Positions 5,061 to 62,652 of a DNA stretch of 64,000 nucleotides are shown here, piece after piece; the stretch's first letter is position 1; each line of letters opens with the position of its first letter. A model generated the notes under the pieces. The model was not told the DNA's origin, did no database searches, and worked only from the letters and a program-made list of their open reading frames with translations. Source of the DNA: a virus; IMG/VR virus record IMGVR_UViG_3300035670_000020, positions 95,971 to 159,970 of that record. One strand, given 5' to 3'. A program made the position numbers and the translations under genes.

Positions 5061-5214
5061 TCCAAACCTCTTGAACAGCCACAACAAAGTGATAATCCGT
5101 ATTCCAGCTTTGAGAAGGTATTAAAGCTACTGCCTCTAATATATGATGTGCTTCTAAATACTCCCAACGTAGTTTATCTGTTTGTTCCTGAATTGTTATT
5201 CTGAATTTTCTCAT
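5053..5214 (-). CDS. Small protein, 53 aa, downstream of the NAMPT-like gene
   Basis: A 53-codon frame beginning MRKFRITIQEQTDKLRW and ending in TAG at 5053-5055. Its ATG overlaps the TGA of the nicotinamide phosphoribosyltransferase gene (ATGA), and its stop overlaps the next start, so it fills an otherwise empty gap in the operon. The sequence suggests a strand, a helix, then strands. No family is recognised. Confidence 0.6.
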   Translation of the reverse strand: MRKFRITIQEQTDKLRWEYLEAHHILEAVALIPSQSWNTDYHFVVAVQEVWNV

Positions 5215-6725
5215 ACGATATAAAGTCTCCTACGAATATCTGCCAAGGTATGATCTACCAACAAATTACCGTCTTGGAATACCGGCACTAGTTCGCCACC
5301 CTCTTCTTCTTCGTGTGTTACTTGATCCCGAAGAACATACTCGCCGCTCACTAAATCAACTCTCAAAAGTCCTCTGGCGGATTTCTTCATCCCGTCATCA
5401 GTCACAGGGTCTTTGAAAATTTCTCGTGGCTGTCCGTCCACTTCACAGTAGGTACTTTTTACAGCAATTCCTAAAGAATCTCTGGTGTTGTAATTGTAGG
5501 TATAGGAACCAATCCCAAAGACGATGTTGTTACTGGCAAATCCCTTCTTAGCAAGACGTTCACAAATTGCTTCTGCTCGTTCTCGGCTAATAGAATCTCC
5601 ATAGATACAACCGATATGAGGATCAAGTTCCTTGAATCCCTTAGAATTGACTTTACCACCAAATACTTCCCAAAGAAGTTCGATGACACCTTTATATTCG
5701 GACTCACTATGATTTTGTTTGTAGTAATCTGAACAGTTTTCATATGGTAATATTGTACCATCATTGGTTCTAGGATTAGTATTTAGCCCACAAACAATAT
5801 CTACAGGATCGCCGCTATCTGGACGAATAACCATCTTTCCTTCTCTGCTCAAGATTTTGTCCTTGAGTTTTGTGCAGAAGGTCGTGCATACTTGCCATAG
5901 GTCGAAAGAATCCGAAACAATACTAACAATACCACTTGGGAATTGATCTAGGATTCTATTAAAGGAATCAATTTCTTGTTCTTTTCCGTAGCTTGTCATG
6001 ACAGAATGTTCGGAAGCCGGGACAGAACTACCAATCAATTCTGTTTCCATATTGGCGTTGTAGTATTCTTCAAGCATAAATACGCTAGGAATAGTATCAG
6101 TACCAGTAAAACTCAGAAGATGACCAGCTTGATTAAACGTACTTTCTGTGCTAGAACGACCTCTTTGACTAAAATCATGACCTTGCCATTGAACAAAACT
6201 ACGATCATCACAAGTTTTATCGGCCCAATTTTCAAGAATTTTGCGGTATTCTCGGGCGATAGTTGCATTGACACACAAATCCCAAATACACGTACTCATT
6301 TGTGTTTCAAGAAAATTTACCAACCAAGCAAAATCGTCATGAGTATTTGTAATAGTAAAGAAAGGAACCTTTTCTCTTACAAGACTTCCTTCTGGTAAAG
6401 CTTTAATCAAAATAGGAAGATGCCCAAGATCATGTAGCTTCTCGATATGTTCGGTTGGCATATCGTAGAAACTAAAATGTTTGTGGAAACGCTTGAATTG
6501 CTGGACTACTTTTTCTTTTGGTTGTTCAAAAAAGTTTCTGTTCCATTGACCTAATAGGTATTCTTTAAGATAGTATTGTAATCCGAAGAAAACGGATCTA
6601 TCTGTTTGCATATGTTTGAAAGAGCGAGGAGTAAAATTAGAATATAGACGAGTAATCCCACCTGGATACATTAGGTGGTGAAACTGTTTGTAGGAATCAC
6701 TATTAAGAATCGGCAAAATTTCCAT
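5211..6725 (-). CDS. Nicotinamide phosphoribosyltransferase family enzyme (NadV or Namat type)
   Basis: 504 residues, close to the 490 or so of human NAMPT. Family motifs are all present: GTDT at 208-211, SSVPASEHS with the catalytic His240, SDSFD at 271-275, RPDSGDP at 301-307, and near the C-terminus IVFGIGSYTY and EIFKDPV. The family transfers a phosphoribosyl group to nicotinamide to give NMN. A phage subclass (Namat) instead joins nicotinamide to ADP-ribose pyrophosphate and makes NAD+ directly, working with a PRPP-synthetase-like Adps. A PRPP-synthetase-like gene lies 1.3 kb upstream, which favours the Namat reading, though sequence alone cannot decide substrate. The gene has its own promoter at 6769-6796. 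Confidence 0.93.
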   Translation of the reverse strand: MEILPILNSDSYKQFHHLMYPGGITRLYSNFTPRSFKHMQTDRSVFFGLQYYLKEYLLGQWNRNFFEQPKEKVVQQFKRFHKHFSFYDMPTEHIEKLHDLGHLPILIKALPEGSLVREKVPFFTITNTHDDFAWLVNFLETQMSTCIWDLCVNATIAREYRKILENWADKTCDDRSFVQWQGHDFSQRGRSSTESTFNQAGHLLSFTGTDTIPSVFMLEEYYNANMETELIGSSVPASEHSVMTSYGKEQEIDSFNRILDQFPSGIVSIVSDSFDLWQVCTTFCTKLKDKILSREGKMVIRPDSGDPVDIVCGLNTNPRTNDGTILPYENCSDYYKQNHSESEYKGVIELLWEVFGGKVNSKGFKELDPHIGCIYGDSISRERAEAICERLAKKGFASNNIVFGIGSYTYNYNTRDSLGIAVKSTYCEVDGQPREIFKDPVTDDGMKKSARGLLRVDLVSGEYVLRDQVTHEEEEGGELVPVFQDGNLLVDHTLADIRRRLYIV

Positions 6726-7365: not shown

Positions 7366-7536
7366 TTATTTACTCCAAAATGCTAAATAAGGTAAAGCTA
7401 ACGGCCATAAAATCGCAAAAACAAAAGGTTTCCACAAATCTTCATTTTTGCCGCCTAAAATAGCAAGAAAAAGATAAGCAATAAACGAAACAACAACTCC
7501 ACCGCAATATATGCCTAATAAAAACATACTCATCAT
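7366..7536 (-). CDS. Small two-span membrane protein, 56 aa
   Basis: A 56-codon frame from ATG at 7536 to TAA at 7366-7368. It overlaps the TGA of the NADAR gene (ATGATGA) and ends 1 base before the next start. Two hydrophobic segments flank a polar turn (GGKNEDLWK). It fills the 167-base gap in the operon, which supports its being a real gene. Function unknown. Confidence 0.6.
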   Translation of the reverse strand: MMSMFLLGIYCGGVVVSFIAYLFLAILGGKNEDLWKPFVFAILWPLALPYLAFWSK

Positions 7537-39099: not shown

Positions 39100-39127
39100 A
39101 TTATATCCTACTGTTGGGGTTTGTCAA
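39100..39127 (-). promoter_or_regulatory. Sigma-70-type promoter for the 38841-39065 gene and ligase
   Basis: TTGACA, 16 bp, TATAAT, all consensus, in the gap after the endonuclease VII gene. Confidence 0.88.
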
Positions 39128-39482
39128 GCTGATTTCTGTTTCTAACCTTTATAAGATAATTCAGGGCATTAATGAGAGAAGGAATATCATCACCCAATTT
39201 GCCAAGTCCTTCGTTACACCGACTGCAAACGTGACCACGAAAAGTATCGTCTGTATGATCGTGATCTATTACCCATTTCCAAGGAACCTTACCACAAATT
39301 TCACACACTTCGGGTCTAGGTGGTGCTTCCTTCTTTAATTTCTTTCTGACTTTTGCGTGATGCTTGATGCACTCTCTACATCTTGTATCAAGACGATCTT
39401 TATAAAGACGATGTTTCGGAAACTCAGAAAGTTTCTTAGTTTCTTTACAGTATTGACAAGGTTTTTCTTTTTTGTTTTTCAT
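39108..39482 (-). CDS. Recombination endonuclease VII-like protein
   Basis: About 124 residues from ATG 39482. A longer frame to 39509 would start inside the tmRNA 3' end and is rejected. N-terminal zinc knuckle (CQYCKE and CRECIKHH), then CEICGKVPWKWVIDHDHTDDTFRGHVCSRCNEGLGKLGDD, the DHDH catalytic segment of T4 gp49-type endonuclease VII. It cleaves Holliday junctions and other branched DNA before packaging. Partners in the window are RuvB and the RuvA-III-like protein. Confidence 0.88.
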   Translation of the reverse strand: MKNKKEKPCQYCKETKKLSEFPKHRLYKDRLDTRCRECIKHHAKVRKKLKKEAPPRPEVCEICGKVPWKWVIDHDHTDDTFRGHVCSRCNEGLGKLGDDIPSLINALNYLIKVRNRNQLDKPQQ

Positions 39483-39491
39483 TTTTTGTAT

Positions 39492-39841
39492 TGGTGGAGA
39501 TGTTGGCATACGATAGCCAAGTCCTAAAAATATTTCAGATAGCTTTTCTACAAGTTTATTTTGTTCTTTTTAAGAGAAATTATAGAACAAACAACATTCT
39601 TTTCTCTTTGCTTGTTTATCTTAGTTTGTTGATACAAGCTTCAACAAAAGCAAAAGGATTTTACATCAACTTTTTGGACGCCTCCTTTTAGCTTCCTAAA
39701 GTTGTCGTAGCCGTTATTAGGCTGCGAGAGCTAATTGATTTACGTCAATTAAACGTTTTTATCGACTTGTTAAAGTGGCCTGTCGATAAACCACTACTTG
39801 CTTTACTAACCTCTTTATTCTAGTCGAAACCTTTCATCCCC
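39492..39841 (-). ncRNA. ssrA: Transfer-messenger RNA (tmRNA)
   Basis: A 350-nt gene with every tmRNA landmark. The 5' end GGGGATG pairs with CATCTCC before ACCA at the 3' end, with a G-U at the third pair, the alanine identity element. GGTTTCGACT follows the 5' strand. PK1 (39758-39795) is AGTGG/CCACT interlaced with TTTATCGAC/GTCGATAAA. Eleven bases later GAC starts a tag, DVNQLALAA, ended by TAATAA (39714-39746). PK2 (39651-39704), PK3 (39610-39647) and PK4 (39560-39608) are all clear H-type pseudoknots. CTAGAATA pairs with TATTTTTAG to form P2. A consensus promoter lies 11 bases upstream. The CCA is encoded. The T-loop appears to be 8 rather than 7 bases. It presumably rescues stalled ribosomes and tags proteins. 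Confidence 0.96.
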
Positions 39842-39851
39842 GTATGTTCTT

Positions 39852-39879
39852 ATTATACACCATCAGTTTGGTTTGTCAA
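39852..39879 (-). promoter_or_regulatory. Sigma-70-type promoter for tmRNA
   Basis: TTGACA, 16 bp, TATAAT, 11 bases before the mature 5' end at 39841. GGTG precedes the -10 box, giving GGTGTATAAT. Confidence 0.92.
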
Positions 39880-60765: not shown

Positions 60766-61634
60766 TATTTATATTCCTTATAACATTTATTGTTAGCTAT
60801 TGAATTAATTATTCCATGACTGATATTATAGTCCTTAGCTATATGTCTATGTGTTTCTTTTCCTTTAGATAGTCTTTTTCTTATTTCTTTAACTTGTGTA
60901 AGATTTAATTTTCTTTGACTTAATAAATATTGTTCATATTTTATTCTTTGTTTTATTATCTTATCAAAATTTTTCTTTTTTCTTTTTAGGAATATTGTTG
61001 CGTCCTTATACATAAAATCCATTAGTTTTTTAATTTCTTTGTACCCATATAATCTAATATCGCAAGTATAAGTGTTTTGTTTGGTTTTTTTATATTTTAC
61101 CATAAAAGAAGATATATTTAATTTTCTTTTAAAGAACCTTAATAAATATTCACTAAAGTCACTATTAGAAATAATCATAAAGGTATATTTATTTTGATTT
61201 TTACTCTTCGTAACAGATATACCTCCATCACCATCAAAATATCCTCTTATAAAGTGATGAATTAAATTTTTAGGTATGTGTCTGTATGGAAATTTTAAGG
61301 TATAACTTTTTTGATTATCTAATCCCTTATTAATTAAGTGATTAGTAAAAATTTCTCCGTATATTTTGATATATTTATATTTACTTTGTTTATTTTTGTT
61401 GTTTGGAGTATAATGTTTCGAATCTCCTATTTTCCCAGAATATTTTGTGTACTTTTTAAAGTAACGCAATATCTCTATATCTCTAGCCTGTAATTCAATT
61501 TGAACGTACTTATTACTTTTCTTAGTAGAGATATGACCATCTGCACATATAAATCCAAATAAATACGCTTTATCTTCTGTATCTATGACTTTAAAATAAT
61601 CGTGATCTTTATTATGTATATGTTTATTATTCAT
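60765..61634 (-). CDS. LAGLIDADG-family homing endonuclease
   Basis: 289 residues: LFGFICADGHIS and IRGYFDGDGGISV are the two active-site helices. The C-terminus has a helix-turn-helix (LTQVKEIRKRLSKGKETHRHIAKDYNISHGIINSIAN). Distant paralogue of the 57342-58157 gene. Very A+T-rich, it is wedged between thymidine kinase and RNA ligase with overlaps of a few bases on both sides. Confidence 0.87.
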   Translation of the reverse strand: MNNKHIHNKDHDYFKVIDTEDKAYLFGFICADGHISTKKSNKYVQIELQARDIEILRYFKKYTKYSGKIGDSKHYTPNNKNKQSKYKYIKIYGEIFTNHLINKGLDNQKSYTLKFPYRHIPKNLIHHFIRGYFDGDGGISVTKSKNQNKYTFMIISNSDFSEYLLRFFKRKLNISSFMVKYKKTKQNTYTCDIRLYGYKEIKKLMDFMYKDATIFLKRKKKNFDKIIKQRIKYEQYLLSQRKLNLTQVKEIRKRLSKGKETHRHIAKDYNISHGIINSIANNKCYKEYK

Positions 61635-62652
61635 TTTCTTTTAGCAGAAAGTTATTGTTGATGACTTTAAAACTTATATCTGAATCTTTACTTCTAACAA
61701 CTATCCCCTCTGCTTGTTGTTGTGGAGAAGCGTTTGGAAAGAAGTCTTTATATTTTATGTCGGATAAAGTAAATAGCTCATTAATTGTATATTTAAAATT
61801 ATCTCCTTGTTCGATAATTGGAACAAATTTAAGTTCTATTCTCTTTATAATATCTAACGCATCGTCAATTGGTAGCTTTTTATTTGTTTCAATATCTACA
61901 ACGTTGAATATATAGATGTCTGGTTCTGTTACCTTCATCTTATTTCCTTGTATATTTCCAATTACCTCTCCCTGAATAGCTACTTTAAATCCATCTTGAT
62001 GTAATTTTCTAAGCTTATTTTCTATGTCATACTTCTCGCTTAGTTTCCAGAACATATGGTCGGGTTTTTCTTTGTATGAATAATTTCGCCCACAAACATG
62101 ATAATCTCCCGCTGCATCAATTAAAAATGTGGATGATGTACCATCCAGCTTTAATGATATATAGTATGGGCGACCCCAAAGAGCCTCGATAAAACGATAC
62201 TTGTCGTTATTCTGAACTCTTTCTTCGTCTGTCTTAGAAATAGGCCAACTAAATCCGCCCTTAACATCTCCTTGAATAGCTGTTGGTACTGGTGGTTCAT
62301 ATTTTTCTATTCCTAGAAACTCTGTAACATCAGCACCTTCAACCGCTAAACCTATTTCTGGGAATTTATCTATAGGCATAGCAACGCCTTGGGATAAGAC
62401 TTTTTTTAATTTTATGCTCTTGAGTCTATACTTGTTGATACCATCACGCCAGCAGGATTTTTTAAGAAATTCGTAGCGAGGCTCGTCTGGCAATAGGCTG
62501 TCTATCTCAAAAAACAAACAGAGGTCGTCTACATTAAATTCATCTTTCTTGACAACGCATTGCCAATCAAGAATCTTAGCAAGAACAATCTGATCTGCCA
62601 CCTCAATAGGAAGAATTTCTTTGATTTTTTGTATTGATGCTAGCTGACGCAT
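61627..62652 (-). CDS. RNA ligase, DRB0094/Rnl5 type
   Basis: 341 residues. An N-terminal OB-like domain (QIVLAKILDWQCVVKKDEF; GVAMPIDKFPEIG) precedes the ligase core: motif I SLKLDGTSS with Lys168, HVCGRNYSYKE, motif IIIa IQGEVIGNIQGN, motif IV EGIVVRSKD and motif V SFKVINNNFLLK. It matches the Deinococcus RNA ligase family. Phage RNA ligases repair tRNA or rRNA cut by host defences. Confidence 0.87.
   Translation of the reverse strand: MRQLASIQKIKEILPIEVADQIVLAKILDWQCVVKKDEFNVDDLCLFFEIDSLLPDEPRYEFLKKSCWRDGINKYRLKSIKLKKVLSQGVAMPIDKFPEIGLAVEGADVTEFLGIEKYEPPVPTAIQGDVKGGFSWPISKTDEERVQNNDKYRFIEALWGRPYYISLKLDGTSSTFLIDAAGDYHVCGRNYSYKEKPDHMFWKLSEKYDIENKLRKLHQDGFKVAIQGEVIGNIQGNKMKVTEPDIYIFNVVDIETNKKLPIDDALDIIKRIELKFVPIIEQGDNFKYTINELFTLSDIKYKDFFPNASPQQQAEGIVVRSKDSDISFKVINNNFLLKENE

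Follow-up and report, generated by a model that had tools for sequence, protein, structure and literature searches.

A phage tmRNA gene with an eight-nucleotide T-loop points to a virus-associated class with a probably remodelled elbow

Few RNA motifs are as well conserved as the T-loop, and a gene with an unusual one raises the question whether it still encodes a working transfer-messenger RNA (tmRNA) and what its altered elbow would be for. The locus considered here lies in a 64,000-nt stretch of viral DNA (the window), which corresponds to positions 95,971-159,970 of the 159,970-bp IMG/VR record IMGVR_UViG_3300035670_000020. From its sequence features we consider, with a probability of about 0.74, that the gene encodes a working phage tmRNA that would use host SmpB and belongs to a virus-associated class with a re-engineered elbow. 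Phage tmRNAs as such are already known; the novelty is the altered T-loop together with the altered D-loop, which the original prediction, made from the letters of the window, had missed.

Infernal analysis with the Rfam model RF00023 gave a match at 39841-39492 on the minus strand, covering the full model (positions 1-374) with 96.9 bits (gathering score 47, E-value 1.5e-36); it was the sole match above gathering score in an Rfam search of the window, and the tmRNA on a longer contig of the same virus gave the same RF00023 score. The original prediction of a complete one-piece tmRNA in a phage genome is borne out by this match, and the elements that it had named (the acceptor stem with a G-U third pair, the encoded CCA, GGTTTCGAC, four pseudoknots and a tag frame ended by TAATAA) were all located:

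39492-39841, minus strand: one-piece tmRNA (ssrA) gene, 350 nt including the encoded CCA (RF00023)
39835-39841, minus strand: 5' strand of the acceptor stem, GGGGATG, with G3 opposite U70 (sequence, script)
39823-39834, minus strand: short D-loop segment AAAGGTTTCGAC, 3 nt ahead of GG (sequence)
39760-39795, minus strand: pseudoknot PK1, AGTGG/CCACT and TATCGAC/GTCGATA (exact complements)
39714-39746, minus strand: tag frame with GAC as putative resume codon, D V N Q L A L A A, then TAA TAA (script)
39652-39704, minus strand: pseudoknot PK2, two exact 7-bp stems (script)
39610-39648, minus strand: pseudoknot PK3, 8- and 6-bp stems (script)
39560-39608, minus strand: pseudoknot PK4, two 8-bp stems (script)
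39503-39520, minus strand: T-arm stem TTGGC/GCCAA, with a closing C-G pair replacing the canonical G-C (script)
39508-39515, minus strand: 8-nt variant T-loop TATCGTAT, with a proposed inserted pair A39514-T39510 (covariation, 40 distinct arms)
39492-39502, minus strand: 3' strand of the acceptor stem, CATCTCC, discriminator A and encoded CCA (sequence, script)

The alanine identity elements (G3.U70, discriminator A and CCA) were present by sequence check, as were GGTTTCGAC and an encoded ACCA, and the stems of PK1-PK4, the full set of the one-piece form, were exactly complementary where the script located them. The tag frame has a hydrophobic end followed by tandem stops (DVNQLALAA, TAATAA), and the other two frames of the tag region, read by eye, have no -AA tail at their end. 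GAC was taken as the probable start of the tag because it comes after TAATT when the gene is aligned to RF00023.

A canonical tmRNA T-loop has 7 nt (UUCRANN) and is closed by G53-C61, a form that is usual and not family-defining. The window T-loop, UAUCGUAU, has 8 nt and is closed by C-G; it is thus not canonical, and the tmRNA was filed as a variant of RF00023. ARAGORN, which had been named beside Infernal as a check on the prediction, reported no tmRNA in the window. Among the matches listed, the program picked up 1 of 46 distinct genes with 8-nt loops, 12 of 22 whose loops have six nt and 61 of 72 with the canonical seven-nt loop. ARAGORN therefore misses nearly all 8-nt-loop genes, which could explain why the class has stayed unseen. 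For these counts, and for the D-loop spacers given below, each row was a locus whose 5' partner had been detected, and rows were kept distinct on the first 60 or 80 nt of the 5' piece; where no 5' partner was detected, the locus was excluded (for example 26 eight-nt rows).

Viral contigs were scanned with three patterns. With all loop letters fixed, the same loop was found in 30 contigs. With loop positions 2 (X) and 6 (X') free, 81 stretches were obtained; two of them (L060 and L075) had no T-stem, and the remaining 79 had 4 or 5 paired T-stem positions and only A-T, C-G or T-A at the free positions. The third pattern left the whole loop free and fixed four T-stem pairs and the C-G closing pair; among the 120 matches listed it gave 74 six-nt, 5 nine-nt, no seven-nt and, by subtraction, 41 eight-nt loops. 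Nine of the eight-nt loops listed were unique to this loop-free scan (UAUCGUAG, UAUUGUAU, UAUCAUAU and UAUCGUAA), and these also fit U-X-UYR-X'-A-N with a Watson-Crick X-X'. The class was defined by this formula together with a closing pair other than G-C, and the window tmRNA falls within it. Across 40 distinct 8-nt arms, included if 5 T-stem positions were paired, the inner pair (positions 2/6) was Watson-Crick in 40/40 (A-U 22, C-G 13, U-A 5), against 16.9 on average and at most 30 in 20,000 shuffles. The outer T-stem pairs were a selection criterion and were therefore not counted as evidence; for the same reason a whole-structure score of 0.768 versus 0.181 overstates the case.

On this covariation, the 8-nt loop can be read as a 6-nt loop to which one base pair has been added within the U54.A58 bracket. 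A trivial extension of the T-stem, with a Watson-Crick U-A below X-X', fits less well, because the nine eight-nt loops unique to the loop-free scan keep U1 and A7, as a U54.A58 T-loop platform would. Loops of 6 nt (UUCRAN and relatives, C-G closed; 74 of the 120 matches listed, L217-L303) form a second viral T-loop class, and the five 9-nt loops among the matches listed (UCUCGGUAU, CUGCGACAA) also occur in tmRNA-like arms. The 8-nt loop was rejected as a general trait of phage tRNAs: in 2.9 Mb of DNA examined, it was seen in 60 distinct tmRNA arms versus 0 tRNA-like arms.

The T-loop does not vary alone. Between the acceptor stem and the UCGAC-like motif, the D-loop segment was short, at 7 nt, in 43 of 45 distinct 8-nt-loop tmRNAs, and the same spacer was found in 14 of 69 seven-nt-loop tmRNAs among the matches listed (Fisher 2e-16, the rows being related and not independent). 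The seven-nt comparison set was taken from 120 matches listed with a pattern that requires G53-C61 and UUCRA; some loci of the set are host-derived, as indicated by flanking matches to SmpB (3), integrase (2) and flagellin (2). Eight flanking proteins from seven 8-nt loci had a relative beside 7- or 6-nt-loop loci. In four pairs of loci with homologous neighbours and a 7-nt partner (L044/L210, 73% identity; L030/L121, 62%; L063/L192, 54%; L045/L187, 45%), T-loop, closing pair and D-loop segment all differ jointly, which suggests that the elbow was exchanged or remodelled as one unit.

The 8-nt-loop class spans one-piece genes, one-piece genes with long tags and permuted two-piece genes. The long-tag one-piece phage tmRNAs have tags of ~30-35 residues, for example ADDDMSDLLAEAEYIFNNADEFLGGIEEESYALAA (L015, L019, L024, L028, L034, L062 and relatives; start set by eye). 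Outside viral contigs the loop was nearly absent from the prokaryote genomes scanned: the exact pattern of the UAUCGUAU type gave two matches in 84,980 species. One (L043) has an unpaired T-stem and is a chance match; the other (L044) is a two-piece tmRNA (RF04321) on a 7.2-kb contig that was binned as Bacteroidetes and is phage-like, with genes matching phage endolysin, EndoVII and exonuclease families. This pattern requires exact GGAC and CTCCACCA and so overlooks genes in which CCA is not encoded. When two phyla were scanned for 6- to 8-nt loops with C53-G61, a match was seen in 1 of 296 genomes of the first (the L044 contig) and in 0 of 297 of the second. The virus association suggested by these scans is strong where the UAUCGUAU type is concerned, whereas the other types were only sampled. 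A recent copy of a host gene is disfavoured, because none of the scans made located the loop type on a bacterial chromosome.

One alternative is an ordinary phage tmRNA, in which the T-loop changed by neutral drift with a compensating pair and plays no special role. In its favour, the rest of the anatomy is standard, and the occurrence of 6-nt, 8-nt and a few 9-nt loops in viral contigs resembles a relaxed element. Drift does not, however, readily account for an inner pair that is Watson-Crick in every distinct arm or for the D-loop changes alongside, and it would be expected in bacterial ssrA too, where it was not seen in the limited surveys. The tRNAs of the same virus that ARAGORN found also speak against it, since most have canonical T-loops (GTTCRA in 23 of 25; ARAGORN favours such loops). 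Taken together, drift is a possible but doubtful explanation.

Several results weigh against a virus-associated class with a rebuilt elbow and are to be set beside the covariation. In 35 of the 40 distinct arms the search pattern itself required U1 and A7 in the loop, so that five arms test their invariance, and nearest-neighbour folding left the inner pair open in 4/4 arms tried. The bacterial survey for other loop types covered 593 genomes of two phyla, and the canonical-pattern positive control was found in 9/61 and 48/59 genomes of these phyla, which makes the first phylum a weak test. A pattern search of three phage isolates did not find the loop, the isolates phage G, BUCT-ZZ01 and HTVC008M have, as we read them, 7-nt loops closed by G-C, and short blastn queries of a phage collection gave no tmRNA with an 8-nt loop. 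As for the tag with its putative GAC start, even the best one-piece tmRNAs compared align with it partially, mostly at the 3' end. In further blastn searches of isolated phages, nothing was found with the one-piece L039 and L051, the two-piece L031 matched part of BUCT-ZZ01, where the loop is canonical, and the window tmRNA and short T-arm queries gave chance-like short matches only.

In tmRNA, G3.U70 directs alanine charging, the elbow is where SmpB binds, and the tag is where the ribosome resumes. The window RNA has retained its tag, pseudoknots and acceptor, and we therefore think that it probably works, and does so with host SmpB. It would be transcribed from its own promoter and trimmed, host alanyl-tRNA synthetase (AlaRS) would charge it with alanine through G3.U70, and host SmpB and EF-Tu would load onto it for use on stalled ribosomes. 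The tmRNA would then add Ala-DVNQLALAA, of which the ALAA end should be recognised by host Clp-type proteases. In the proposed elbow, one Watson-Crick pair would be inserted between the U54 and A58 positions and close a UCG turn, the 53-61 pair would be C-G (or U-A) in place of G-C, and the facing D-loop segment would be short. Searches for SmpB in the window's record and in 17 other virus records (possibly incomplete) gave no match, with bacterial control genomes positive both times.

The same elbow could instead serve a decoy or inhibitor, which would bind SmpB, AlaRS or EF-Tu, add no tag and block host trans-translation, as is reported for the RNA of phage DS6A that consists of the tRNA-like domain (TLD) only. 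The alteration sits where SmpB contacts the TLD: according to a review and a cryo-EM paper, SmpB binding requires the D/T-loop contact and the elbow touches SmpB (PMC3968760, PMC8363625). Moreover, a DS6A-like RNA strongly inhibits tmRNA, perhaps via SmpB titration (PMC4131195). A decoy would, however, need no tag frame, resume region, tandem stops or four pseudoknots, all of which are kept here, and a frame with a typical tag end was found in 47 of the 50 eight-nt rows listed (the finder seeks only such ends). We therefore regard a decoy as quite improbable and retain a predicted role in tagging.

The surroundings of the gene bear on two further explanations:

39852-39879, minus strand: predicted sigma-70 type promoter TTGACA-16-TATAAT (12/12 consensus matches)
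39108-39509, minus strand: endonuclease VII-like gene (PF02945, 4.6e-11; PHROG 2633)

The consensus promoter of the original prediction was recovered at 39879-39852 as a consensus match with 12/12 hexamer positions; it ends 10 nt ahead of the mature tmRNA 5' end, and shuffling of the region gave a mean of 2.6 promoter-like sites at the looser 9-of-12 cut-off. These perfect hexamers, the intact stems and the compensatory inner-pair change across the class argue against a decaying or non-expressed gene acquired from a host, an explanation that could draw on the distance of the nearest relatives and that we consider very improbable. The adjoining endonuclease VII gene, likewise predicted, was confirmed by its PF02945 match. 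Its longest frame begins within the tmRNA T-arm; the true start is probably a later ATG, and distant relatives align starting at residue 6 or 14. Five such distant relatives (L008-L012) are followed in 5/5 loci by a tRNA-Ser gene in place of a tmRNA; Rfam scores four of these five tRNA-Ser genes as tRNA-Sec, and group I introns lie near three of the five loci.

Homing-type, HNH or EndoVII-like endonuclease genes adjoin the tmRNA in the window, L022, L029, L044 and L051. As such genes adjoin some loci, escape from homing elements has to be weighed as a rival, in which the variant elbow would be the mark of a gene resistant to mobile elements, such as homing endonucleases, group I introns and integrases, with the conserved T-loop DNA as their target. 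The group I introns of bacterial tmRNA genes all lie in the T-loop (PMC11915505). PHROG tallies for the 8-nt set gave such families with up to 4 of 80 flanking proteins per family (one protein added by hand), and none of those families is among the 25 listed for the 7-nt set (120 proteins). Yet the tallies cover the 25 families listed and were counted not per locus, one-by-one scans of 20 flanking proteins gave 3 matches to homing or HNH endonucleases, and a regex test with a control set gave no clear difference (it missed a known EndoVII and was dropped). Mobile-element resistance is on balance an unlikely explanation of the elbow.

The 159,970-bp record begins at position 7,384 of a 209,847-bp contig, with which it agrees fully in the stretches compared; a terminase-based search for virus relatives returned this longer contig of the same virus only. 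Outside the shared part, the longer contig carries one array of 24 tRNAs and one tRNA-Cys, together serving 18 amino acids; no tRNA was found in the window's own record. Adjoining the 24-tRNA array is a Pistol self-cleaving ribozyme (60.6 bits; L328 16550-16622, minus strand, ~206.55 kb of the longer contig). The window itself contains an RNA ligase gene (61627-62652, minus strand, PHROG 968), whose product possibly repairs cleaved tRNAs, and a nicotinamide phosphoribosyltransferase gene (5211-6725, minus strand, PHROG 448, 5.5e-187), possibly a phage NAD-repair gene.

Our leading guess for the selective reason is that the RNA escapes host or mobile-element factors by which the canonical elbow is recognised. 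The setting agrees with escape from a host factor, because this large phage has many tRNAs and an RNA ligase; phage tRNAs have been proposed to evade anticodon nucleases (PMC10264068). In its most specific form, which we put forward tentatively and hold to be rather unlikely as a whole, tailed phages would have evolved an elbow of their own (extra T-loop pair, reversed closing pair, trimmed D-loop) that host SmpB and ribosomes accept and that goes unrecognised by host factors such as defence nucleases, T-loop modification enzymes, integrases or introns. If true, this would amount to counter-defence built into a ribosome-rescue RNA. The covarying extra pair in one- and two-piece viral tmRNAs suggests that selection on the RNA can persist through a rebuilding of the elbow, and the class makes it possible to test directly which features of the elbow SmpB, EF-Tu and the ribosome require.

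In the literature searched by title and abstract (most subscription journals lie outside it), no description of an 8-nt or base-paired tmRNA T-loop was found. The original prediction had held phage-borne tmRNAs to be known from only some large phages. That they are carried by some phages stands; their rarity has to be qualified by PMC9004378, in which tmRNA genes are given for 402 of 18,146 phage genomes, with ARAGORN named for one-/two-piece sorting. Ten phages with tmRNA are given in PMC4131195 and 79 unique phage tmRNA sequences in PMC11915505, where the main search relied on hits from Aragorn and BLASTN. Counts of phage tmRNAs made with ARAGORN overlook genes like that of the window. For mycobacteriophage Wildcat, the tmRNA is described as its most highly expressed lytic gene (PMC7474061).

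Compared with known systems, the window gene shares with the one-piece bacterial tmRNA of RF00023 the G3.U70 acceptor, the encoded CCA, the GG-UUCGAC segment, PK1-PK4 and a tag with tandem stops, whereas it differs in its 8-nt T-loop with a proposed internal pair, its C-G closing pair, its short D-loop, a resume codon read as GAC and its being missed by ARAGORN. With the earlier phage tmRNAs (Bxz1 group, Wildcat, Bacillus phage G, Melnitz, pelagimyophages) it has in common a tmRNA in a large phage; in phage G and Synechococcus phage BUCT-ZZ01 the loop, as we read it, is the canonical G-UUCGACU-C, and in HTVC008M it is a 7-nt UGCAAUA closed by G-C, all unlike the window. The T-loop is also the altered spot in tmRNA genes with group I introns (PMC11915505), but there splicing restores the mature loop, whereas in the window the loop itself is longer and holds no intron. 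A parallel in idea would be the phage tRNAs with altered anticodon loops that have been proposed to evade nucleases (PMC10264068), in which function would be kept and a host recognition site lost; there the site is the anticodon loop of a tRNA, whereas in the window it would be the elbow of a tmRNA, for which no attacking nuclease is known.
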